64,000 nt of DNA from Cellulomonas fimi ATCC 484. GTDB taxonomy: Bacteria; Actinomycetota; Actinomycetes; Actinomycetales; Cellulomonadaceae. Numbering within the stretch: the first letter of the stretch is position 1; each line of letters starts with the position of its first letter. The notes beneath the pieces were generated by a model that saw only the letters and a program-made list of their open reading frames with translations, made no database searches and was not told the origin of the DNA. The stretch is taken from NCBI RefSeq assembly GCF_000212695.1, contig NC_015514.1, positions 434,001 through 498,000 on the forward strand, read 5' to 3'. This document shows, piece by piece, positions 49,811 to 60,911 of the stretch. The position numbers were made by a program, and so were the translations under genes.

Positions 49811-49911
49811 TGTAGAAGCTCTCGGAACGTGTCCGGCAGGCGTGCGCCTGGCGTGCGAGCGGTCACGGTGGTCAGTCGGCGTTCGTCTCATCTGCCTGTC
49901 CGAGTCCTCAG
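49811..49911 (+). repeat. Dispersed hairpin repeat, copy R1
   Basis: First of six ~100-base intergenic repeats. It begins TGTAGAAGCTCTCGGAACGT and ends TGTCCGAGTCCTCAG, with CGTCTCA at 49884-49890; the ends CTCGGA and TCCGAG can pair. The 376 bases between the HAD gene and the next gene (49780-50155) hold no other recognisable feature. Confidence 0.5.
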
Positions 49912-50155
49912 CGAGCTGGGGGAGCCCGCCACAGACGTGCCCGGCGTCGAGCGTGCGCGAGCTCCGGCGGACACCGTGCGGATGCGTCGAGTGCAGCCGG
50001 GACCGGGGCGCCGAGCGTCACGCCGGCGGCGAGGATGCCGCGCCGAGCCCTTGGGCTTACTGCCCGGTCGTGCTGCGCTTGCGCCCGCGTGGCCCCGAGA
50101 TGGGCGCCCGTCCGGTGACGTCGCCCTCGCACTCGTGCCGCTCCAAGGGGCCGGA

Positions 50156-50548
50156 TCAGCCAGGTGAGGGCTGCACGTCCAGCGTGACGACGTAGCCGCT
50201 CAGCCGGACGCCAGGACCGCCCGTGGCGGTCTCCTCGACGTGCGCCACCTCGCGCAGGAACGCCGTGCCTGGCACCGGGGACAGCACGCCCCCGACACCG
50301 GAGCCTGCGTAGCCGACGAAGGCAGCGTGGATCTCGAGCACGGTTCCGTGCGTCGAACGACTGGTGTCGTCCGACGCGCCGTGGCTGTTCTCGACAAGAG
50401 AGATGCGCTGGGCGACGTCACGGGGAAGCACGGTTTCGAGCGAGTCGGATTCAGGATCTGCAACGTGCCAGTCGACGGAGTCCCCCACGCCGAAGACGCT
50501 CCCGCAGCACGTCAGCGTCAGCTCGGGGACCCAGACGACGACCGGCAC
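50156..50548 (-). CDS. Small hypothetical protein, DUF6578-like
   Basis: A 130-residue protein with VVVWVPELTLTCCGSVFGVG and GDSVDWHV at the start, the CCG-x-F-x-VG-D-x-V-x-W pattern I associate with the DUF6578 family. Ends in a beta-rich ~40 residues. The GTG at 50548 is chosen because a GTG at 50563 falls inside repeat R2. It lies alone between repeats R1 and R2. Function unknown. Confidence 0.65.
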   Translation of the reverse strand: MPVVVWVPELTLTCCGSVFGVGDSVDWHVADPESDSLETVLPRDVAQRISLVENSHGASDDTSRSTHGTVLEIHAAFVGYAGSGVGGVLSPVPGTAFLREVAHVEETATGGPGVRLSGYVVTLDVQPSPG

Positions 50549-50556
50549 CGGGCCAT

Positions 50557-50646
50557 TCTGCACCGGACTTGTCCGCCGTCCGTCGCCGTGACCTGAGTCC
50601 TGACAGGAACGGGAGACGACCGATGTCTCGTTCGCGTCTGGATCTC
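50557..50646 (+). repeat. Dispersed hairpin repeat, copy R2
   Basis: Slightly short copy: CACCGGACTTGTCCGCCGTC near the left, TGACC, then GAGAC-N7-GTCTC (50613-50629) and GTCTGGATCTCAG at the right. It directly abuts the start of the DUF6578-like gene. Confidence 0.45.
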
Positions 50647-50881
50647 AGACGACGCCCGAGGGTCCGCTGAGTAGTCGCGGCGAGCAACACGAGCTCGTCG
50701 TTCACCCGGGGCCGGACAGCACTCATGGACGAGCTCGGGATTCTCGGCGAGCCGTCTCGCACAGTGACAGGAGACCAGTTGCACGCAGTGGAGAACTTGC
50801 TCGGGGCTCTTCGGACGTGGCTGTCCCCGCTCGCCCTTGCCCCTCTCGTTGCGGTCCGCTCTTGAGCTTTTTGCAGATTCC

Positions 50882-51456
50882 GTGAGTGGTGGCGCGGTGA
50901 GGTACGGCAGCTACATCGACGAGCTCGCGGCAGCTGTTGACGATCTCGCTCCCCGCGCACGGGCTTCCGTCTTCTGGCTGTCGGGATCGGCACTGCGCGC
51001 GACGCTGGTCACGCCTCCCAGCTGGCATGACTGGATCGCCGCCGCCAATCATGCTGGATTCGAGTTCGCCACGACCGGCGTGGTGCGTCCAGCCGCCGCC
51101 GAGCTCCGGGAGGGGGTGGACACCCCGACGGGTAGCGACGAGTCACAACGGCTGCACTCCACGATCGTGTGCCTCAGCACACCCCTGGCCATCGCTCTCG
51201 ACCCCAACAGGCGAGTCGGGCCATGGATCGAGCATGCCTTCTGCGCACTCATCACCACGGTCTCTCTCGAGATGACGGGCGACGTCGCCATGCCCGGTGA
51301 CGACGACGAGCTGGACGAGGTAGTCGCGCAGAGCGTCCTGCAGGACGTCGGGGCCACGTCCGTTCGGTCTCCAGCCTCGCTCGTCGGGCCGAACCGGAAG
51401 AGGCGACGCTGCGATCGCTGGCCGAGCAGATGCGCGAGCTCGTTCGGACGGTGTGA
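50882..51456 (+). pseudogene. Frameshifted hypothetical gene
   Basis: From GTG 50882 the frame reads an ordinary soluble protein (AVRYGSYIDELAAAVDDLAP, SWHDWIAAANHAGFEF, STIVCLSTPLAIALDPNRRV, MPGDDDELDEVVAQSVLQDV). Near 51355-51372 the plausible frame shifts and continues SSLARRAEPEEATLRSLAEQ to a stop at 51454-51456. The total of 575 bases suggests one lost base from a ~191-residue protein. GC content and codon use look lower than in neighbours. No family recognised. Could be a real decay event or a sequencing error. Confidence 0.55.
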
Positions 51457-51501
51457 GGGTGGCAGCCGATCTGGCGTCACCGGTATCCGAAGACAAGACA
51501 C

Positions 51502-51602
51502 TGTGGGAACTCATCGGACTCGTCCGGAGGGCCAGGCTCTGATCTGCGGCGGGATAGCTCGGAGAGACGTCACTCGTCTCAGCAAGTTGTCCGAATCCCC
51601 AG
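51502..51602 (+). repeat. Dispersed hairpin repeat, copy R3
   Basis: TGTGGGAACTCATCGGACTC start, GAGACG-N5-CGTCTC central hairpin (51564-51580) and TTGTCCGAATCC end. TCGGAC at the left pairs with GTCCGA at the right, enclosing the central hairpin. It follows the frameshifted gene by 45 bp. Confidence 0.55.
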
Positions 51603-51620
51603 CCTGGTGCTCCGAAGGAT

Positions 51621-52166
51621 CTACAGCAGCCTCGGCAGCCCGTACATGAATGCGACGGTGGCGAGCGCGGAAGCGAGGACCGGGTACGCCGTGACGATCC
51701 AGAACGCTTCGGGCCACCGACGGCGGGCGTCCTTCAACCGGTTGATGGGCAGGTTGATCCGCGCTGTGGGGACATCGAGTGGTGACCAGCGTGCGCGCAT
51801 GGCTGTGTCGCCGTCTGTGCTCGTGTCCCGCACGCGAAGGAGCACACCTCCCGTCGTTCCGATGACGAGGTGGTGGTCGACGGCCATGTCGGTGCCCCGC
51901 ATGCCGCGGTCGAGGAAGGGCACCGTCTGGACGAGCTCGACGCGGGAGATCCGGGCTCGTTCGATGCGCCGCTGACGACCCGCCCGGTTCCTCCACTGGA
52001 CAGCCTCGGACGTCACGACCGCCCGTTTCCAGTTGGTCCTGGGTGCTCGTGGGTAGTGGGGGCGAGGCATGTCCGGCCGCTGTCCGAGCAGGAGGTCGAG
52101 GGCGATGCGTCGGACCCCGGGACGGGTGGGCGCCGCCGATGTTCCTGCCGGGTCGTGTCGAGTCAC
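51621..52166 (-). CDS. Hypothetical protein with PH-like region and C-terminal membrane helix
   Basis: A ~181-residue protein. The middle (VVTSEAVQWRNRAGRQRRIE, LVQTVPFLDRGMRG, LVIGTTGGVLLRVRDT) looks like a bacterial PH-type beta barrel. Residues ~160-180 (FWIVTAYPVLASALATVAFM) form one membrane helix at the C-terminus. The start is uncertain: GTG at 52166 is used; ATG at 52070 would give 149 residues. No function can be assigned. Confidence 0.5.
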   Translation of the reverse strand: MTRHDPAGTSAAPTRPGVRRIALDLLLGQRPDMPRPHYPRAPRTNWKRAVVTSEAVQWRNRAGRQRRIERARISRVELVQTVPFLDRGMRGTDMAVDHHLVIGTTGGVLLRVRDTSTDGDTAMRARWSPLDVPTARINLPINRLKDARRRWPEAFWIVTAYPVLASALATVAFMYGLPRLL

Positions 52167-52671
52167 TTCGGACGCATCGGCATCGACCGTCGCCAACTAC
52201 ATCGTTCACGGGCGCACGCTCGACGGCATGAGCCGCACGATCGGTCGCGCGACAGCGACGGACACGAGCAGTGACGACTCGTGCTCGTGGCCTCGCCACC
52301 GCACGCCACGTTCGTAGCGAGCGACTCGCGAGCACCCACCCTCCCCATGCTTCCGTGACACGTACGCACGAACGACGACACGACGATTGGTCGGAGGATC
52401 GCAGCAGCAACGGGGCGATCGCCACCTCTGGTGCCCTCGTCCTCGAGCCGTTCCGGGGCCGCGCTGTGCTGCTACCCCGGGTGACACGTCGATGACAACG
52501 CGACATCGCGATGACAGGTCGATGATGTAGGTTCGCGCGGATCCTGACGGAGTCGCGACACGAGGGCCAGGCGCTTCGCAGAGCCGTGTCGGTGGCACGT
52601 TCGCAGCGGGATGGCGACGTCTTCGTTCCGAAGAGGGCGGCATCCGCTTGTGGTTCGGTACGCCGCAGGGG
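52167..52671. other. Intergenic stretch without a recognisable gene
   Basis: About 500 bases. Open frames here have unconvincing composition. Near 52490-52530 the motif GATGACA/GATGATG recurs four times in ~45 bases (CGATGACAACGC, CGATGACAGG, CGATGATG), of unknown meaning. Confidence 0.4.
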
Positions 52672-53955
52672 TCAGACCGTGCGGCCGTGCTCCTCGACCC
52701 CGGCGTCCTGGCGCAGGCTCGCGCGGGTGACTTCGACAGCCCACTCGGTTGCGTCGTCGGCCTTCTCGGGGCCGAGCCGCGTCCACGCGACCGCCACGTG
52801 CGTTGCCGCGCTCTCGCCGGCGAGGAGGGCGGGCAGCAGCCAGGACAGGCCTCGGGGGTTCTCGAGCGGTCCGTAGGGGTCGTCCCAGGTGAACGATCCC
52901 TGCCACGAGAGCGCGTGGAGTCCGGCGCGCAGCTCGTCCTCGAAGGCGTCGTGGTGGGGCCCGCCCACAGTCAGTGTGTGCTCGTCGTCGTCGAAGTGCG
53001 TCGCCGCGAGGTGCCAGCCGCCGCCGGGCCCACCCTCCATCCCGTCCGGGAGCTGCGCGTCGACGCGGATCGGTCCGGTGTCGGCCCGGGCGTGCATGCG
53101 CCACTCGATGCCCCAGCACGTGCACTGGGGGTGCTCGAGGAGCTCGTTCTCGTAGGTGTAGGGCACGACGAGGGCGTCGACGGTCAGCCCGCCGACGTCG
53201 TCCCACCGGGCGGTGCGGGCGCCGGACGGCAGGACCGACGTCGCGGACGGCAGGCCGAGCGGGACGCCGCCGCACGTCAGGGAGATCGCGAGCGGCCCGA
53301 GCGGCGTCGCGATCCGCTCGCCGCTGTGCGCGGCGGCGAGGTCGCGCACCTGGTCGTCGGGGTCGTCGACGAGCCGGCGGGCGACGAGCAGCGCCCGTGG
53401 CGGGTCGACGACGAACCCGCCTTCCTGGACCAGGGCGTACAGGGCGTAGTGGCGGACGTCGGCGTCCGGGTCGGCGGTCAGGTGCTCCAGGGCGTCGAGC
53501 ACCTCGGTGGCCGGGTCGTCCGGGTCCGTGAGGTACGGCAGCTGGAACGCGACGGTCGTGCGGACCCCGTCGTCCGGGTGGTCGACCCGGTCGAGGAACC
53601 GCCCGACCGCTTCTCGAGCGCCGTTGTAGGCCAGCGCCTGCAACAGGCTCCGCTCCCTCGCCGGGTCGTCCGACCCGTCCAGGAGCCCGAGCAGGTGCGG
53701 GACGACCCGGTCGCTGAACGGACGGCGACCCACCGGGTCCGCCGGGCCGAGCTCGCGCAGGACGCTGACGCCCAGCTCCCACGCATCGGGGTCGTCACTC
53801 GCCGTCCAGCGCAGCGCCAGGTCGAGCACCTCCGCCGTCGCACGCCGCTGAAGCTCGACCACGTGAGGCACAGGGCTGTCGCCGGTGTCGTGGCGGACCT
53901 CCGCCAGCGCGGCCGCGACGACCGCCCCCAGCGACAGGTCGGAGAGTGAGTGCAC
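52672..53955 (-). CDS. HEAT-repeat-type protein
   Basis: A 427-residue soluble protein. Residues ~40-215 contain helical pairs of HEAT/PBS-lyase type (ERSLLQALAYNGAREAVGRF, DGVRTTVAFQLPYLTDPDDP, DADVRHYALYALVQEGGFVV, DDQVRDLAAAHSGE). The second half is different, beta-rich, with HPQCTCWGIEWRMHARA and HALSWQGSFTWDDPYGPLEN. GTG at 53955. HEAT repeats suggest protein binding; no partner is evident. It shares the R3-R4 segment with the PH-like gene. Confidence 0.75.
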   Translation of the reverse strand: MHSLSDLSLGAVVAAALAEVRHDTGDSPVPHVVELQRRATAEVLDLALRWTASDDPDAWELGVSVLRELGPADPVGRRPFSDRVVPHLLGLLDGSDDPARERSLLQALAYNGAREAVGRFLDRVDHPDDGVRTTVAFQLPYLTDPDDPATEVLDALEHLTADPDADVRHYALYALVQEGGFVVDPPRALLVARRLVDDPDDQVRDLAAAHSGERIATPLGPLAISLTCGGVPLGLPSATSVLPSGARTARWDDVGGLTVDALVVPYTYENELLEHPQCTCWGIEWRMHARADTGPIRVDAQLPDGMEGGPGGGWHLAATHFDDDEHTLTVGGPHHDAFEDELRAGLHALSWQGSFTWDDPYGPLENPRGLSWLLPALLAGESAATHVAVAWTRLGPEKADDATEWAVEVTRASLRQDAGVEEHGRTV

Positions 53956-54002
53956 GACCGCACCGTAGCCGCAGGGCTACACCGGTAGACCGCGCCCTGC
54001 CG

Positions 54003-54060
54003 CCGACAGCCGAACGCGAAACTCGCCACTCCTCCGACAGCCGAACGCGAATTCGCCACT
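54003..54060. repeat. Direct tandem repeat upstream of the HEAT gene
   Basis: Two units (54003-54030 and 54034-54060), each beginning CCGACAGCCGAACGCGAA and ending TCGCCACT, 31 bp apart and almost identical. They lie 48-105 bp upstream of the HEAT gene and could be regulator binding sites or remains of a duplicated end. Confidence 0.6.
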
Positions 54061-54084
54061 TCGCGTGCGAACCGACACCACAGG

Positions 54085-54184
54085 TGTAGGAACTCATCGA
54101 ACGTGTCCGGAGCCCAACCCTTTGACCTGCGGTGGGACATGTAGGTGAGACGGTGCGCGTCTCACCTACATGTCCGATTCCTCG
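54085..54184 (+). repeat. Dispersed hairpin repeat, copy R4, with perfect 18-bp stem
   Basis: TGTAGGAACTCATCGAACGT start and TGTCCGATTCCTCGG end. Its central hairpin is a perfect 18-bp stem (54135-54152 with 54158-54175) around GTGCG, the most regular of the six copies. Confidence 0.6.
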
Positions 54185-54308
54185 GCCCGGAGCCTCGTCT
54201 GGCTCGAAGGACGCTTGCGCCGGTCATGCCGAGAGGCGAGGGCGTTCGAGGCTGCCTGGCGGCACAATCGACTGTGTGCAGACATCCGCGGTTGCTGGCC
54301 GCGCCGAC

Positions 54309-54788
54309 ATGGCGGCGCGACATGTAAGCATGCAGCTCGCGGCTCCGGGGCCCGTGGACCGCGTCTGGCAGGCGCTGACGGATGGTCGGCACACAGTCAG
54401 CTGGCTAGGCCGCCTCAATGTCGAGCGAGTCGTTGAGGGCGGGCACTTCGACCTGTGGCACGACGAGGACGTCAGCTCCCGGCACACCGTCGTGCAGTGG
54501 CACCCTCGACGACTGCTGGCTTTGACGTGGGACTTCCCCGAGGAGCACTCGAGTCGCGTCAGCTTTGGCCTCGCCGAGACGAGCGCGTCCACAGCGATGC
54601 TCACCGTGCATCACGAGTCCGTGGACGATGCGGTGTCCTACGCCGCCGGCTGGCACCGGCACCTCCAATTCCTCGAGGCGCACCTGCGCGGGCGAGACCT
54701 TCCGCTGGGAGAATTCTGGACCGGCTACGACGACCTCGTCGGGCTCTACGGCGCAGATCAGTTCAGCTCCGACGCTCGACCCACCTAA
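54309..54788 (+). CDS. SRPBCC (AHSA1-like) domain protein
   Basis: A 159-residue AHSA1 protein: VSMQLAAPGPVDRVWQALTD, LNVERVVEGGHFDLWHDEDV, VVQWHPRRLLALTWDFPEEH and HRHLQFLEAHLRGRDLP with the terminal helix. ATG at 54309; a GTG at 54276 is possible. No regulator adjoins it, unlike the two ArsR-linked copies. It is the only recognisable gene between repeats R4 and R5. Confidence 0.78.
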   Translation: MAARHVSMQLAAPGPVDRVWQALTDGRHTVSWLGRLNVERVVEGGHFDLWHDEDVSSRHTVVQWHPRRLLALTWDFPEEHSSRVSFGLAETSASTAMLTVHHESVDDAVSYAAGWHRHLQFLEAHLRGRDLPLGEFWTGYDDLVGLYGADQFSSDARPT

Positions 54789-54799
54789 CCGCGCAGCGC

Positions 54800-55115
54800 G
54801 GCATCCGCAGATGCCGCGGGCCAGCGCGTCGTCGACTGCCTCGTCACGACGATCAATCGGCTCGTCGCGGTGGTGAAGGTCGCCGCGGCCGCTTGTGCAC
54901 CGGGCCCTCCTGGACCGCGGACACGCAACCGCGACGGCGGACACACCGAGCGCCGTCGCGGCCGCCCGCAGATCCTCGTCGGCCAGCCGGTCCTGGTGGC
55001 GGATCAGCTCACAGCAACGCGAATCGGACAAGCTCAACCGCCTGACGCAGCGGCAGAAGTGCCGAGCCATCTGAGCGTCTTCCCACAGGATCCGCCACGT
55101 CTTCCTACAGAGCAC
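54800..55115 (-). other. Doubtful minus-strand reading frame / gene-poor gap
   Basis: The 540-base gap 54789-55328 has no clear gene. A minus-strand frame from 55115 (LIRHQDRLADEDLRAAATAL within it) runs on antisense through the AHSA1 gene and has no stop near its plausible part, so it may be a gene remnant. TTCCTACAG (55105-55113) is an inverted copy of the left end of R5. Confidence 0.25.
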
Positions 55116-55122
55116 CGACTGT

Positions 55123-55222
55123 AGGAACGCACCGGACTTGTCAGCCGCCAGGCTCTCTGACCTGCGCCGTGACAGCAGCCTCAGACGGCGGCCGTCTCAT
55201 CTTCGTGTCCAGATCCTCAGGA
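55123..55222 (+). repeat. Dispersed hairpin repeat, copy R5
   Basis: TGTAGGAACGCACCGGACTT start, AGACGG-N3-CCGTCT central hairpin (55186-55200) and TGTCCAGATCCTCAGG end. The left end CTGTAGGAA (55122-55130) forms a perfect 9-bp inverted repeat with 55105-55113. Confidence 0.55.
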
Positions 55223-55328
55223 TCACGCCCAGCGCCCGGCGGACCGCGTTCGGACGTGCCTACGCTGCGAGCGGCGGGTGGACCGCCGCTCTCGGCGGGG
55301 AGTGCCAGCACCTGAAGGGGCAGCGACC

Positions 55329-56297
55329 ATGGAGTACACACGGCTGGGGCGCTCCGGCCTCAGGGTCAGCCGCATCGGCCTCGGCTGCATGAGCTACGGC
55401 GTGGCCGCGACCGGCATGCACCAGTGGACGCTCGACGAGGACGCGGCGGCGCCGTTCTTCCGCCAGGCCGTCGAGGTCGGCGTGACGTTCTGGGACACCG
55501 CGAACGTCTACCAGGGCGGCACGTCCGAGGAGTTCGTCGGCCGAGCGATCCAGCGCTACTCCCGCCGCGAGGACATCGTCCTGGCCACCAAGGTCCACGG
55601 GAAGATGCACGACGGTCCCGGCGGCAGCGGCCTGTCCCGCAAGGCGATCCTCGAGCAGCTCGATGCTTCGTTGCACCGGCTCGGCACCGACTACGTCGAC
55701 GTCTACTACATCCACCGCTTCGACGACGACGTCCCGGTGGAGGAGACCATGGAGGCCCTCCACGACGTCGTGAAGGCCGGCAAGGTCCGCTACCTCGGCG
55801 CCTCCTCCATGTGGGCCTGGCAGTTCGCCAAGCTGCAGCACACCGCGCGCCTGCACGGCTGGACCCCCTTCGTCGCGATGCAGGACCAGTACAACGTCCT
55901 GCGCCGGGAAGAGGAGCGGGACATGATCCCGCTCTGCCTGGACCAGGGCGTCGGCCTGACCCCGTACTCACCGCTGGCGAAGGGCCGGGCTGCACGACCC
56001 TGGGGTGAGCAGACGGCCCGGTCCTCGACGGACGCCGTCGCCAAGGCCTTCGACCGGGACGTCGACCAGGCGGTCGTCGATGCGATCCAGCGGGTCGCGG
56101 AGGCCCGTGGCGCCTCGATGGCCCAGGTTGCCCTGGCGTGGCTGCTCTCCAAGCCGGTGGTCGCCTGCCCGATCGTGGGTGCCACCAAGCCGCACCACCT
56201 CGCCGACGCCGTCGCCGCCCTCGACGTGGACCTCACCGACGAGGAGATCGCCGCGCTCGAGGAGCCCTACACGACCCAGGACAACTACTGGTGGTGA
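55329..56297 (+). CDS. Aldo/keto reductase
   Basis: A 322-residue TIM-barrel NADPH-dependent oxidoreductase of the YajO/Tas type. LGRSGLRVSRIGLGCMSYG start; catalytic tetrad visible as Asp in WDTANVY, Tyr in the same motif, Lys in LATKVHG and His in VYYIHRF. NADPH-binding IVGATKPHHLADAVAAL near the end. ATG at 55329 behind AAGGGG. It is the only gene between repeats R5 and R6. Reduces aldehydes or ketones; substrate unknown. Confidence 0.9.
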   Translation: MEYTRLGRSGLRVSRIGLGCMSYGVAATGMHQWTLDEDAAAPFFRQAVEVGVTFWDTANVYQGGTSEEFVGRAIQRYSRREDIVLATKVHGKMHDGPGGSGLSRKAILEQLDASLHRLGTDYVDVYYIHRFDDDVPVEETMEALHDVVKAGKVRYLGASSMWAWQFAKLQHTARLHGWTPFVAMQDQYNVLRREEERDMIPLCLDQGVGLTPYSPLAKGRAARPWGEQTARSSTDAVAKAFDRDVDQAVVDAIQRVAEARGASMAQVALAWLLSKPVVACPIVGATKPHHLADAVAALDVDLTDEEIAALEEPYTTQDNYWW

Positions 56298-56341
56298 CCG
56301 GGTAGGCCGCTCGGTGCCGCAGCGGTGGTCGCGCGAGCGGC

Positions 56342-56441
56342 TGTAGGGACGCGCCATGCATGTCTGCCGTCCAGCGCGGTGAACTCGCTGCGGACAGGCG
56401 CGTGGGACGACCGTCGTCTCACCATCGTGTCCAGATCCTCA
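56342..56441 (+). repeat. Dispersed hairpin repeat, copy R6
   Basis: TGTAGGGACGCGCCATGCAT start, GGACAGGCGCGTGGGACG...CGTCTC central region and TGTCCAGATCCTCA end. It lies 45 bp after the aldo/keto reductase stop and 19 bp before the end of the acetyltransferase gene. Confidence 0.55.
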
Positions 56442-56459: not shown

Positions 56460-57035
56460 TCAGGCACTGAACCCCGTCATACGGACGAGCCGTGCCGGGA
56501 CGCCGGCGACGATCGCGTTCGCGGGCACGTCCTTGGTGACGACCGCGCCGGCGCCGACGATGGCGCCGTCTCCGATCGTCACTCCCGGCAGGACCGTGAC
56601 AGAGGCGCCGAGCCAGGCCCTGCGGCCGATCACGACGGGCGCCGGGACCATGTCGGCGCGACGCGCGGGGTCGGCGACGTGGTTGAGCGTCACGATGGTG
56701 GTGCCGTGCCCGATCAGCGTCCCGTCGCCGAGGGTGATGCCGCCGGCGTCCTGGAACCGGCAGCCCATGTTGATGAAGACGTCCTGGCCGAGCGTGAGGT
56801 TCTGGCCGAACTCGCAGTGGAACGGCGGGAACAGGGCCACCGAGTCCGCCACGGGCCGCCCCGTGAGCCGGGACAGCAGCGCGCGCACCTCCGCGGGCGT
56901 GCGGTAGCCGGAGTTGAGCTCCGCCAGCACCCGCAGCGCGTCCTGGGCCGCGGCGTGCAGGAACGCGTGCTGCTCGGAGCCACCCTCGATGACCGCCCCC
57001 CGGGCGACGTGGTCGAGGAACTCCTGCAGCTCCAT
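56460..57035 (-). CDS. Sugar O-acetyltransferase (left-handed beta-helix)
   Basis: A 191-residue hexapeptide-repeat acetyltransferase of the maltose/nodulation type: [40 protein letters not shown] with catalytic His in TLNH, and [20 protein letters not shown] with [23 protein letters not shown] at 57035 overlaps the stop of the XRE regulator gene by one base, so it is co-transcribed with it. With the regulator split by an IS, its expression may be changed. Confidence 0.88.
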
Positions 57036-57779
57036 CACGCCTCCGACCGGGCCGCGGGTGCAGGGTCGGTGGCCCACGACGCGAGCAGGCGCAGGCGCTC
57101 GGCCGACGGCGAGCCCGGCTCGGCGGTGTAGACCATGAGCACCTGGCCCGGCTCCGCGGTGATCGCGAGCTCCTCGTAGGCCAGGGTCAGCTCACCGACG
57201 ACGGGGTGGTGGAACCGCTTGGTGCCCGACCCGTGGGTGCGGACGTCGTGTGCGCCCCATAGCCGGCGAAAGACGTCGCTGCGGGTGGACAGCTCACCGA
57301 CGAGGTCCTGCAGCCCCTTGTCGTGCGGGTCGCGGCCCGCCTCGGCGCGCATGATCGCCACGCACATCTCCGCGAACAGCTCCCAGTCGGGGTAGAAGTC
57401 GCGCGCCGCGGGGTCGAGGAACTGGAAGCGCGCGAGGTTCGGGGCGCGGCCGCCGTCGCCGATGACGGGGGAGTAGAAGGCGCGACCGAGCGCGTTGGTC
57501 GCCAGCAGGTCCTGGCGCTGGTCGCGCACGAACGCGACCCCGTCGGTGATCGCGGCCAGGGCCCACTGCAGGCTGGGCCGAGGAGTCGCCGAGCGGGCCG
57601 CGCGACGGCGCGGCCGGCCGGACGACGGGATGCCGTCGGCGGCCCGGGCGAGGTCGAGCAGGTGCGCGCGCTCGGTGTCGTCGAGCTGCAGCGCCGTCGC
57701 GACGGCGTCCAGGACGGAGGCCGACGCCCCGGCGATCGCGCTGCGCTCGAGCTTGGCGTAGTACTCCACGCTCACGCCC

Positions 57780-57785: not shown

Positions 57786-58863
57786 TGTACTCGGCCGTCA
57801 GGTTGGTGACAGTCGGCTGACGGGTGGGAGTCCGCCCAGGGCGTTGTGGCGTCGTCGAGTGTTGTAGTGCTCGAGCCAGGGGGCAAGGGCGGCGGCTCGT
57901 TCGTCGTTGGTGGTGAAGACCTGCCGGTAGGCCCACTCAGTCTGCAGAGTGCGGTTCAGTCGCTCGACCTTGCCGTTCTGCCAGGGGCAGTGCGGGCGGA
58001 TGAAGACCTGCTTCGCGCCGAGGTCGGCGGCGACGTCGCGCAGTGACCAGCGGTAGGCCCAGGCGTTGTCGGTCATGATCCGCTCGATCCGGGTGATGCC
58101 GTGAGCGGCGAAGTAGGCCGCGGCGCGCGTCACGAACCCCGCGCAGGTGGCGCCTTTCTCGTCCGCGAGGATCTCGGAGTAGGCGAGCCGGGAATGGTCG
58201 TCGACCATGGAATGGACGTAGTCGAAGCCGATGGGGTCGTCCCGGTGCCGGTCGGCGACGTCGCGGCCCAGGGCGCGCCAGCCGCCGCCGTCGGGGATGC
58301 GCCCGAGCTTCTTGACGTCGACGTGGACCAGCTCGCCGGGCCGGTCGCGTTCGTAGCGGACCGCGGTGGCCTTGCTGGCCCGGACGACCTGGCCGGTCAG
58401 CGGGTCCAGGTCGCGCAGCAACGGCATCCCGCGCCGGCGCAGCACCCTGGTGATCGTGCGCGCCGGGACACCCAGGGCCGCGCCCAGCACGTCCGGCCCT
58501 GACCGGTCACGTGCTCGCGCCGCGCAGATCGCGTCCTCCAGGGCGGCCGGTGTCCTGCTCGGGCTCGTCCGCGGCCGTGACGACCTGTCCACGAGACCGT
58601 CGGCCCCCTCGGCGCGCCAGCGCCGGACCCATCGGTAACCGGTCTGGCGGGCGATCCCGAGCTCGTGGGCGACGTGAGCGACCGGTCGACCCTGATGCAC
58701 GACGCGGTCGATCAGCAGCTGGCGGCCACGCAGATTCAGTCGGGCGTTAGCGTGAGGCACGAGAACCTCCGGGTGGGTGTGGGCCTTCGACAAGCCACAG
58801 CCCAACCGGAGGTTCTCCTGTCGTCAACGGCCCCCGACGTCACCAACGTCCCGGCCGAGTACA
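57786..58863 (-). mobile_element. Complete IS481-family insertion sequence (1,078 bp)
   Basis: Ends begin TGTACTCGGCCG on both sides as inverted repeats, continuing with GTTGGTGAC after three variable bases, and have the TGT...ACA termini of IS481 elements. It carries one transposase. The duplicated target GCTAGC fits the NCTAGN preference known for IS481. Both ends and the transposase are intact, so it looks recent. Confidence 0.92.
57798..58760 (-). CDS. IS481-family transposase
   Basis: A 320-residue DDE transposase. N-terminal HTH (IDRVVHQGRPVAHVAHELGI, ARQTGYRWVRRWRAEGADGL), then an integrase core with Asp in LVHVDVKKLG, Asp in RIMTDNAWAYRW and Glu in GKVERLNRTLQTEW, ending HYNTRRRHNALGGLPPVSRL. 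GTG at 58760 has GGAGG upstream; a TTG at 58805 would add 15 residues. All catalytic residues are present, so it is likely active. Confidence 0.92.
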   Translation of the reverse strand: MPHANARLNLRGRQLLIDRVVHQGRPVAHVAHELGIARQTGYRWVRRWRAEGADGLVDRSSRPRTSPSRTPAALEDAICAARARDRSGPDVLGAALGVPARTITRVLRRRGMPLLRDLDPLTGQVVRASKATAVRYERDRPGELVHVDVKKLGRIPDGGGWRALGRDVADRHRDDPIGFDYVHSMVDDHSRLAYSEILADEKGATCAGFVTRAAAYFAAHGITRIERIMTDNAWAYRWSLRDVAADLGAKQVFIRPHCPWQNGKVERLNRTLQTEWAYRQVFTTNDERAAALAPWLEHYNTRRRHNALGGLPPVSRLSPT

Positions 58864-60637: not shown

Positions 60638-60827
60638 CATCCGTCTCCGAGGCTGCGGAGCCGCCCGTGCGTGGTTCCGCCGCGCACGGCCCCTGGTGGA
60701 CGCAGCCGCAGAGTCTGCCGGCACCACGGGCCCTCCGAGCGATTCTGCGTCTTCCCGAGCCCTTGGGACGCGACCAGGACTGTGCATGCGTGCGCGCGTG
60801 TGCGGGAACACGGCGGGTCGCTTCAGA

Positions 60828-60848
60828 GTTGAGCCAAGCAGACTCAAG
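60828..60848. promoter_or_regulatory. HAIR element 1 (HspR operator)
   Basis: GTTGAGC-N7-ACTCAAG, one mismatch from the HspR inverted repeat CTTGAGT-N7-ACTCAAG, about 130 bp before dnaK. Confidence 0.85.
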
Positions 60849-60890: not shown

Positions 60891-60911
60891 CTTGAGCCCG
60901 GCGGACTCAAG
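60891..60911. promoter_or_regulatory. HAIR element 2 (HspR operator)
   Basis: CTTGAGC-N7-ACTCAAG, a near-perfect HAIR sequence 68 bp before the dnaK start. Two copies imply cooperative repression of dnaK by HspR with DnaK as co-repressor, as known in Streptomyces and mycobacteria. Confidence 0.92.

Follow-up and report, generated by a model that had tools for sequence, protein, structure and literature searches.

Co-oriented repeats upstream of dnaK in Cellulomonas fimi as likely left ends of Tn7-like transposons with a probable HAIR operator target

Upstream of dnaK, the stretch of Cellulomonas fimi ATCC 484 analyzed here (contig NC_015514.1, positions 434,001 to 498,000; 64,000 nucleotides, called the window) contains six co-oriented copies of a repeat of about 101 base pairs (bp). 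We consider it likely that these blocks are the left ends of Tn7-like transposons that inserted upstream of dnaK with their right ends towards the gene, and that the target selector TnsD of these transposons probably reads the HspR-associated inverted repeat (HAIR). Coordinates are positions in the window, and compared genomes of the family carry G numbers, with G000 being the window's own genome. All six copies are located on the plus strand within 6.6 kb, and their alignment showed a mean column identity of 72%. A weight matrix built from the six and scanned along the window gave 57 to 133 bits for the copies and at most -21 bits for the rest. The six starts reported by a first-pass annotation, which had been made from the letters of this DNA, proved correct or a few bases off (55123 became 55120, and the copy at 50557 is eroded). 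The covariance-model search proposed there recovered the same six copies at 71.8 to 107.7 bits across the 4,266,344-base genome, as well as further copies in related Cellulomonas genomes. The next independent place scored 20.2 bits, disregarding reverse-strand matches of the palindromic core within the six copies themselves, and the model revealed no further strong copy in the 4.27-Mb genome. The proposed left ends, with their covariance-model scores, are as follows.

49811..49911, plus strand: copy 1, 87.4 bits; the first T of TGTAG is the element's first base
50557..50650, plus strand: copy 2, 71.8 bits; outer bases eroded, TGTAGGAAC lost
51502..51602, plus strand: copy 3, 98 bits; a block common with G078 begins exactly at 51502
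54085..54185, plus strand: copy 4, 107.7 bits; inverted inner sites best preserved, with 18-bp arms
55120..55220, plus strand: copy 5, 99.3 bits
56342..56442, plus strand: copy 6, 95 bits; the copy closest to dnaK

The left end (L) comprises 101 bp starting with TGTAGG and, judged from its motifs, seems to hold three transposase sites with a TGTCC core (L1 forward, L2 inverted, and L3 forward), to which TnsB would bind; L2 and L3 together would form an apparent hairpin. The right end (R) differs in make, with tandem sites and the terminus CC(C/T/G)ACA. Insertions occur at one point and in an orientation that turns R towards dnaK; the distance is about 31 bp to the -35 box and about 57 bp to HAIR. 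As a newcomer would land between the older element and dnaK, the units of an array would be ordered by age, the oldest one lying farthest from the gene. Autonomous members carry tnsA-tnsB-tnsC-tniQ/tnsD adjoining R, and mobilization of the single-gene units of 0.8 to 1.05 kb would have to take place in trans. The sequence read by TnsD is probably the HAIR operator, the box of the heat-shock repressor HspR, because relatives keep a similar distance from HAIR near lon, a clpB-like gene, and a HAIR-like half-site.

The repeat model matched 41 of 221 genomes of the family (E ≤ 1e-5), 31 of them from Cellulomonas; at the looser E ≤ 0.1, 59 of the 81 Cellulomonas genomes had a match, many of them weak. 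Borders were determined by aligning 78 copies with 40 bp of flank on each side, using the arrays of 15 further genomes. Similarity spans 101 bp, beginning with TGTAGGAACTCA and ending after ATCCTCAG, and the columns outside are near random; a loose motif 25 to 30 bp upstream of the repeats is the end of the preceding unit. Since a repeat and its downstream segment recur behind differing upstream sequence, the repeat plus the downstream segment constitutes the unit. In blastn comparisons, 22 repeat-holding blocks were common between arrays: 13 start within 8 bp of the repeat's first base, and the remaining nine start 22 to 969 bp ahead of it. Two common blocks run from left end to right end (at most 3 bp off). 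The unit in G077 and G079 comprises 976 bp, is 98.7% identical between the two species, and occupies different array positions; that in G035 and G068 is 86% identical. The arrays include single-gene units of 0.8 to 1.05 kb without a transposase, among them the one found in G077 and G079, and single-gene units are mobile between species. The first-pass annotation had seen exchangeable gene segments bounded by recombination-type sites, or else small non-autonomous elements. The segments do move whole, and the latter idea came close, except that the block is just one end of each unit. The mode of movement is that of DDE transposition of the Tn7 kind rather than site-specific recombination, because relatives carry tnsABC-tniQ at the same locus, the units have a second, unlike end on their other side, and there are 5-bp target duplications.

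Many units end with CC(C/T/G)ACA just before the next repeat or the dnaK promoter, and others have no recognizable right end. The right ends carry tandem motifs before the terminus, which have the TGTCC core in common with the motifs inside the left end, and fall into several classes (..GATGAGATCCCACA, ..AACGCGAACCCACA, ..GGTGCGAACCGACA, and others). The window contains two regions of this kind.

54003..54077, minus strand: proposed right transposon end of the segment starting with copy 3; right-end motif with tandem sites and terminus ..GCGAACCGACA, ending at 54077
55007..55109, minus strand: putative degenerate right-end remnants before copy 5 (..AACGCGAATCGGACAAGCTCAA.., ..GCGTCTTCCCACA.., ..GTCTTCCTACA), identified by eye against the right ends of relatives and unscored

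The right end at 54077 contains two reverse-complement sites TTCGCGTTCGGCTGTCG (54004-54020 and 54035-54051), terminates 7 bp before copy 4, and belongs to the same type as the right end nearest dnaK in G080. Target duplications were sought in 12 arrays: the 5 bp that follow the right end nearest dnaK were compared with the 5 bp before any left end of the same array. An exact duplication was found in eight (G035, G047, G011, G080, G041, G014, G008, and G040), and three were one letter off (G072, G077, and G068). In 100,000 permutations of the right flanks between genomes, eight matches never occurred (maximum of seven, reached four times), and random positions gave a maximum of two in 20,000 trials. 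G040 has a 1,048-bp element that contains a single gene (SUFU domain), lacks a transposase, and has GAGAA on both sides. In G035, an older right end has the duplicated CCCAC at its tip (ATCCCAC/TGTAGG ... AACCCACA/CCCACAG), and the younger insertion can thus be read directly. Among 16 cases in which a left end follows a right end within 25 bp, 10 have a gap of 4 to 6 bp, which agrees with successive insertions at approximately the same point beside dnaK.

The arrays are anchored on dnaK. With the repeats turned to the plus strand, 11 of 16 stretches (15 genomes and the window) lead into dnaK-grpE-dnaJ-hspR, and the anchor region of the window contains the following features.

60770..60775, no strand: attachment point predicted by comparison with 15 relatives; the dnaK -35 box lies about 31 bp downstream
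60804..60833, plus strand: dnaK promoter-like element GGGAAC-N18-GTTGAG, which we take to be a promoter of the SigR/SigH type
60829..60847 (G000:C1:494829-494847), plus strand: HAIR 1, TTGAGCCAAGCAGACTCAA, the proposed target operator
60892..60910, plus strand: HAIR 2, TTGAGCCCGGCGGACTCAA
60982..62841, plus strand: dnaK, first gene of dnaK-grpE-dnaJ-hspR and right-hand anchor of the arrays

A dnaK match was obtained in 80 of the 81 Cellulomonas genomes (partial or doubtful only in G060 and G070). Comparison by hand placed the repeats (E ≤ 1e-5) upstream of dnaK, on the same contig and strand, in 30 of 31 Cellulomonas genomes; the exception is G026, in which the contig ends there, and G072 has one extra repeat on another contig. 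All 103 independent repeats above 30 bits, from 21 arrays, have one orientation per array, none being reversed, and this orientation is that of dnaK. Ten genomes from other genera of the family also bear repeats. In six of these, dnaK follows the repeat (three of these repeats are weak, at 21 to 28 bits), a seventh has the dnaK promoter after the repeat at a contig end, and in an eighth (G176) tns genes adjoin dnaK. Contig C4 of G039 shows two opposite dnaK loci (85164, plus; 98367, minus) with left ends of equal scores at 74401 (plus) and 109526 (minus), representing either a large inverted duplication or an assembly artefact. Transfer RNA genes were considered as an anchor and rejected, as none was found in the window or in the 15 array stretches scanned (of 20).

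Transposition genes are found beside dnaK in the relatives: TnsA (PF08722), TnsB, TnsC (TniB), and TniQ, with tnsA adjoining the right end. TniQ (PF06527) was detected in 12 of the 81 Cellulomonas genomes and in eight of these it adjoins the repeat array on the side that faces dnaK. Read from dnaK, the order is tnsA, tnsB, tnsC (354 to 355 amino acids), tniQ/tnsD, cargo, and repeats, as found by homology in G072, G008, G011, G047, and G041 and by Pfam in G035. G014 has a full-length TnsB next to TniQ, and G003 has a TniQ match only; simple gene calling missed or cut some tns genes. The G035 TnsB scores below the rve cut-off, so searching with the rve family is of little use. A TnsB scan of 84,980 species genomes, using an alignment of five TnsBs and two peptide patterns, returned at least 39 loci, the scan not being exhaustive. 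In nine of these loci tnsA adjoins dnaK: six are from Cellulomonas, and the others are from an uncultured Isoptericola, Cellulosimicrobium funkei, and Paraoerskovia sediminicola. The TnsB profile matches a solved TnsB at 6e-24. The TniQ/TnsD protein of about 535 amino acids has PF06527 at its N terminus, followed by a long C-terminal part. Its structural model has a predicted local distance difference test (pLDDT) value of 86, and Foldseek ranked a TnsD first (8v32; E value of 9e-4), with low TM-scores of 0.24 to 0.26, the aligned part being chiefly residues 1 to 314; VIA-align found no firm structural match for the C-terminal part. At the dnaK locus, elements of relatives thus combine the hallmarks of Tn7-like transposons: tnsA, tnsB, tnsC, and a TniQ gene inside the element; TGT...ACA termini with internal transposase sites, recognized by motif only, at both ends; a 5-bp duplication; specificity of site and orientation, such that tnsA and the right end face the attachment gene; and a selector of the TnsD type. 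Away from dnaK, other Tn7-like loci with two adjacent TniQ matches were observed in three genomes (G074:C7:9622-11851, G023:C68:111438-113664, and G079:C1:4138291-4140218). Sister Tn7-like elements (L161-L187) occur in Streptomyces, Nocardia, Rhodococcus, Micromonospora, and others; in twelve that were inspected there is no HAIR before tnsA, and most seem to end with CCTACA.

The spacing of the right ends bears on the identity of the target. The distance from the right end to the dnaK -35 box was 30 to 31 bp in 13 of 15 cases. The distance to TTGAG, which belongs to the HAIR operator of HspR, was 56 to 57 bp in 19 of 27 loci, the set being defined as right ends with TTGAG within 45 to 70 bp, the only range searched. 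Away from dnaK, TTGAG was located 56 bp from the right end at lon, 57 bp at a hadA/hadB gene, and 59 bp at a clpB-like gene, with a chance of 0.0027 for TTGAGY to fall in a 6-bp window. This similar spacing suggests that the operator, rather than dnaK, is probably the target. The left-end model gave nothing above 8 bits in L159 and L239-L241, and these loci are thus tied to the family by their right ends and Tns proteins alone. Exact HAIR sites number just three in the window's genome, two at dnaK and one at clpB. It could be argued that the elements are Tn7-like, but that TnsD recognizes the promoter of dnaK or the beginning of the gene itself (coding region or -35 box), with the lon, clpB-like, and hadAB cases representing look-alikes of other specificities. 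The majority of loci being at dnaK, the tight spacing of the GGGAAY -35 box, and the lon locus, where both the -35 box and HAIR are kept, all agree with this explanation. However, two loci without dnaK, the clpB-like one and hadAB, show TTGAG (at 59 and 57 bp, respectively), and the first 330 bp beyond the start of tnsA are free of GGGAA(C/T/G) there; the low chance probability of TTGAGY also argues against a look-alike. We therefore regard recognition of the dnaK promoter or start as unlikely.

Two further explanations concern the blocks themselves. The first-pass annotation had proposed that each block may fold as one long hairpin and could represent a family of non-coding RNAs. The folding claim found weak support, as the single-stranded DNA fold clearly beats shuffled sequences only for 54083-54186 (z of -4.5), whereas the other five copies gave z values of -1.5 to +1.4. 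The inner inverted repeat of the block corresponds to the inverted site pair L2/L3, and across 64 copies 81.5% of the inner-stem cells pair, compared to 78.5% in shuffles. Columns 57-59 of alignment A4 co-vary strongly with columns 86-88 (p ≤ 0.0006, six pairs tested); these are spacer positions of the inverted sites, and the other 15 inner-stem pairs behave approximately as independent columns predict. L1 showed weak or no correlation with L2/L3. The annotation had read the differing arms with partly kept pairing as a hint of selection on structure. Co-variation does exist in three of the 18 pairs, but a variable core common to two inverted protein-binding sites, or relatedness of the copies, would explain it equally well, and RNA structure would not be needed. 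The stem pairing and the three co-varying pairs could be cited in favor of blocks that were copied between genes as RNA terminators or as a family of structured non-coding RNAs. There is, however, no Rfam match at the gathering score in the window, one of six copies folds clearly better than shuffles, most pairs do no better than independent columns, and the borders are those of transposition, which makes this explanation highly improbable.

The blocks could alternatively be attC-type sites of integron-like cassettes, inserted by an integrase acting in trans or by Xer. Co-oriented sites of about 100 bp between unrelated one-gene segments, and a site plus segment that moves as a unit with a sharp border, are what such cassettes would show. 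This reading was the one first pursued for the recurrence of repeat plus downstream segment, and it was dropped on the basis of a search for tyrosine recombinases (PF00589), the second kind of end, and the duplications. The PF00589 search, a check that the annotation had suggested, covered 28 array genomes and tied no tyrosine recombinase to an array: G003, G017, G068, and G078 have just two matches each, neither of them near the array. The tns genes in place likewise oppose it. Moreover, attC sites end in RYYYAAC and GTTRRRY, and by eye these motifs are absent at the ends of the 101-bp consensus. We thus give integron-like cassettes very little chance. The annotation's statement that the window holds no recombinase stands as far as PF00589 is concerned, other recombinase families not having been sought; an IS481-family transposase is, however, encoded at 57798-58805.

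Several observations weigh against Tn7-like insertion at HAIR. The window's genome contains no TniQ and, at 1e-60, no TnsB of this clade, and the array in the window is non-autonomous or a remnant. No intact right end is present at the predicted attachment point 60770..60775, none borders dnaK, and there is only one clear right end. Stacking near an older copy is not predicted by Tn7 target immunity, which suggests that immunity is weak or evaded. The right ends belong to several sequence classes and the left ends to one family, which is odd for a single TnsB; left ends of another class matching right-end class A were sought, and none was found. In G059, the 5 bp after the right end match the flank of no left end. 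When every right end was paired with its nearest left end, an exact duplication resulted in just 4 of 28 pairs. In G035, G047, G011, and G080, the left end matched by the duplication is not the nearest one (G068 is ambiguous); the element then contains further left ends, which means that composite units have arisen or are mobile as well. Transposons of this composite type, with ends inside them, may be common. Eight of the 27 TTGAG spacings fall outside 56 to 57 bp, one of them at 70 bp. Beyond dnaK, HAIR is represented by three loci only (one lon, one clpB-like gene, and one HAIR-like half-site), and the right-end pattern for the three non-dnaK loci, L156-L158, and L239 was added after inspection of the loci.

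The remaining features of the window are the cargo genes and an insertion sequence outside the Tn7-like system.

50156..50563, minus strand: cargo gene, DUF6578 (PF20218)
51621..52016, minus strand: cargo gene, 131-amino-acid reading; a longer reading has no Pfam family
52672..53955, minus strand: cargo gene, HEAT repeats
54330..54788, plus strand: cargo gene, AHSA1 domain
55329..56297, plus strand: cargo gene, aldo/keto reductase
56460..57077, minus strand: cargo gene, hexapeptide transferase, directly after copy 6
57798..58805, minus strand: IS481-family transposase in the dnaK-proximal segment, outside the Tn7-like system (NF033577, 304 bits, cut-off of 224)

The cargo of the window is mundane. 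Relatives of the gene at 51621..52016 occur in the G059 and G078 arrays (cluster cl13). Ten cargo proteins submitted to PADLOC gave one weak match only (E value of 1.2e-4). In G072 (L085, 9561-16293), the cargo of an autonomous element resembles a type I restriction-modification set with large helicase, specificity, and methylase subunits, as read from inspection of the printed sequences alone. Matches to rve equal in length and score to the IS481-family transposase were observed at two other places in the genome, and this transposase is thus probably present in several copies. Motifs resembling GCGTCTTCCCGAGCCCT lie near the attachment point (about 60747-60767) and upstream of dnaK in G004, G050, and G076; perhaps they are right ends of yet another class. 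Given six left ends, one clear right end, degenerate remnants, the IS481 element, and no right end at the attachment point, the array of the window is probably an old one that would need an incoming helper to move.

Tn7 combines TnsABC with TnsD and inserts at attTn7 downstream of glmS, with tnsA by its right end and the right end towards the attachment gene. The dnaK elements share with it the position of tnsA, the right end facing the attachment gene, the fixed orientation, and the 5-bp duplication. They differ in their target, which is probably a regulatory operator upstream of a gene instead of the 3′ end of a coding sequence, and in their dense stacks, 1-kb single-gene members, and unlike L and R ends. 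Genomic islands arise when Tn7-like elements insert at attTn7 more than once; multiple insertions at a single site are a common trait, whereas many tiny units and another target distinguish the dnaK arrays. In integron cassette arrays and clusters of attC sites lacking integrases (CALINs), small unrelated genes stand in a definite order, each gene has its own co-oriented site, and growth takes place at a fixed end. The dnaK arrays resemble them in all of these respects, but rely on DDE transposition with two unlike ends and have no integrase, attI, or attC. Counting from the center of the duplication, the relevant part of PMC2918618 places the Tn7 TnsD site at +23 to +58; on this scale, the -35 box at the dnaK locus begins at about +28/+29, and the TTGAG of HAIR lies at about +54. 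A Tn7-like clade dominated by Actinobacteria, with no experimentally characterized member, is described in the main text of an mBio study from 2021 (PMC8649781). As the pipeline outlined there has tnsB as a minimal requirement, elements without a transposase fall outside that survey. Target selection by the TniQ family at attachment sites also links the dnaK elements to Tn6022/TnsF (comM target) and to the CRISPR-associated transposon (CAST) families, as portrayed in parts of PMC10293859 and PMC11406308. The Tn7-like targets named in the portions covered of PMC8649781, PMC10293859, PMC11406308, PMC9775585, and PMC2918618 are the 3′ end of glmS, parE, tRNA genes, comM, and guide-RNA targets. 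The term dnaK is absent from the main texts of PMC8649781 and PMC11406308, as are dnaK and HspR from that of PMC10293859, and literature searches for terms in main texts, supplements not covered, found no published report of this target.

With somewhat more reservation than for the nature of the blocks, we lean towards a lineage that homes on a transcription-factor operator, the HAIR box, wherever it occurs (dnaK, lon, or clpB), leaves the stress promoter intact, and builds integron-like, time-ordered arrays of single-gene mini-transposons moved in trans. Tn7-like elements are a source of DNA insertion tools. If the proposal is true, a selector reading a short operator would be a new kind of address, whose exact pattern occurs three times in the 4.3-Mb genome, and cargo would be placed beside the master stress operon. 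Stacking of single-gene units of about 1 kb would then constitute a second natural one-at-a-time gene collection beside integrons, in which order records arrival. Insertion of such elements explains the variable region upstream of dnaK in the family, in which annotation alone would leave a series of unrelated genes.

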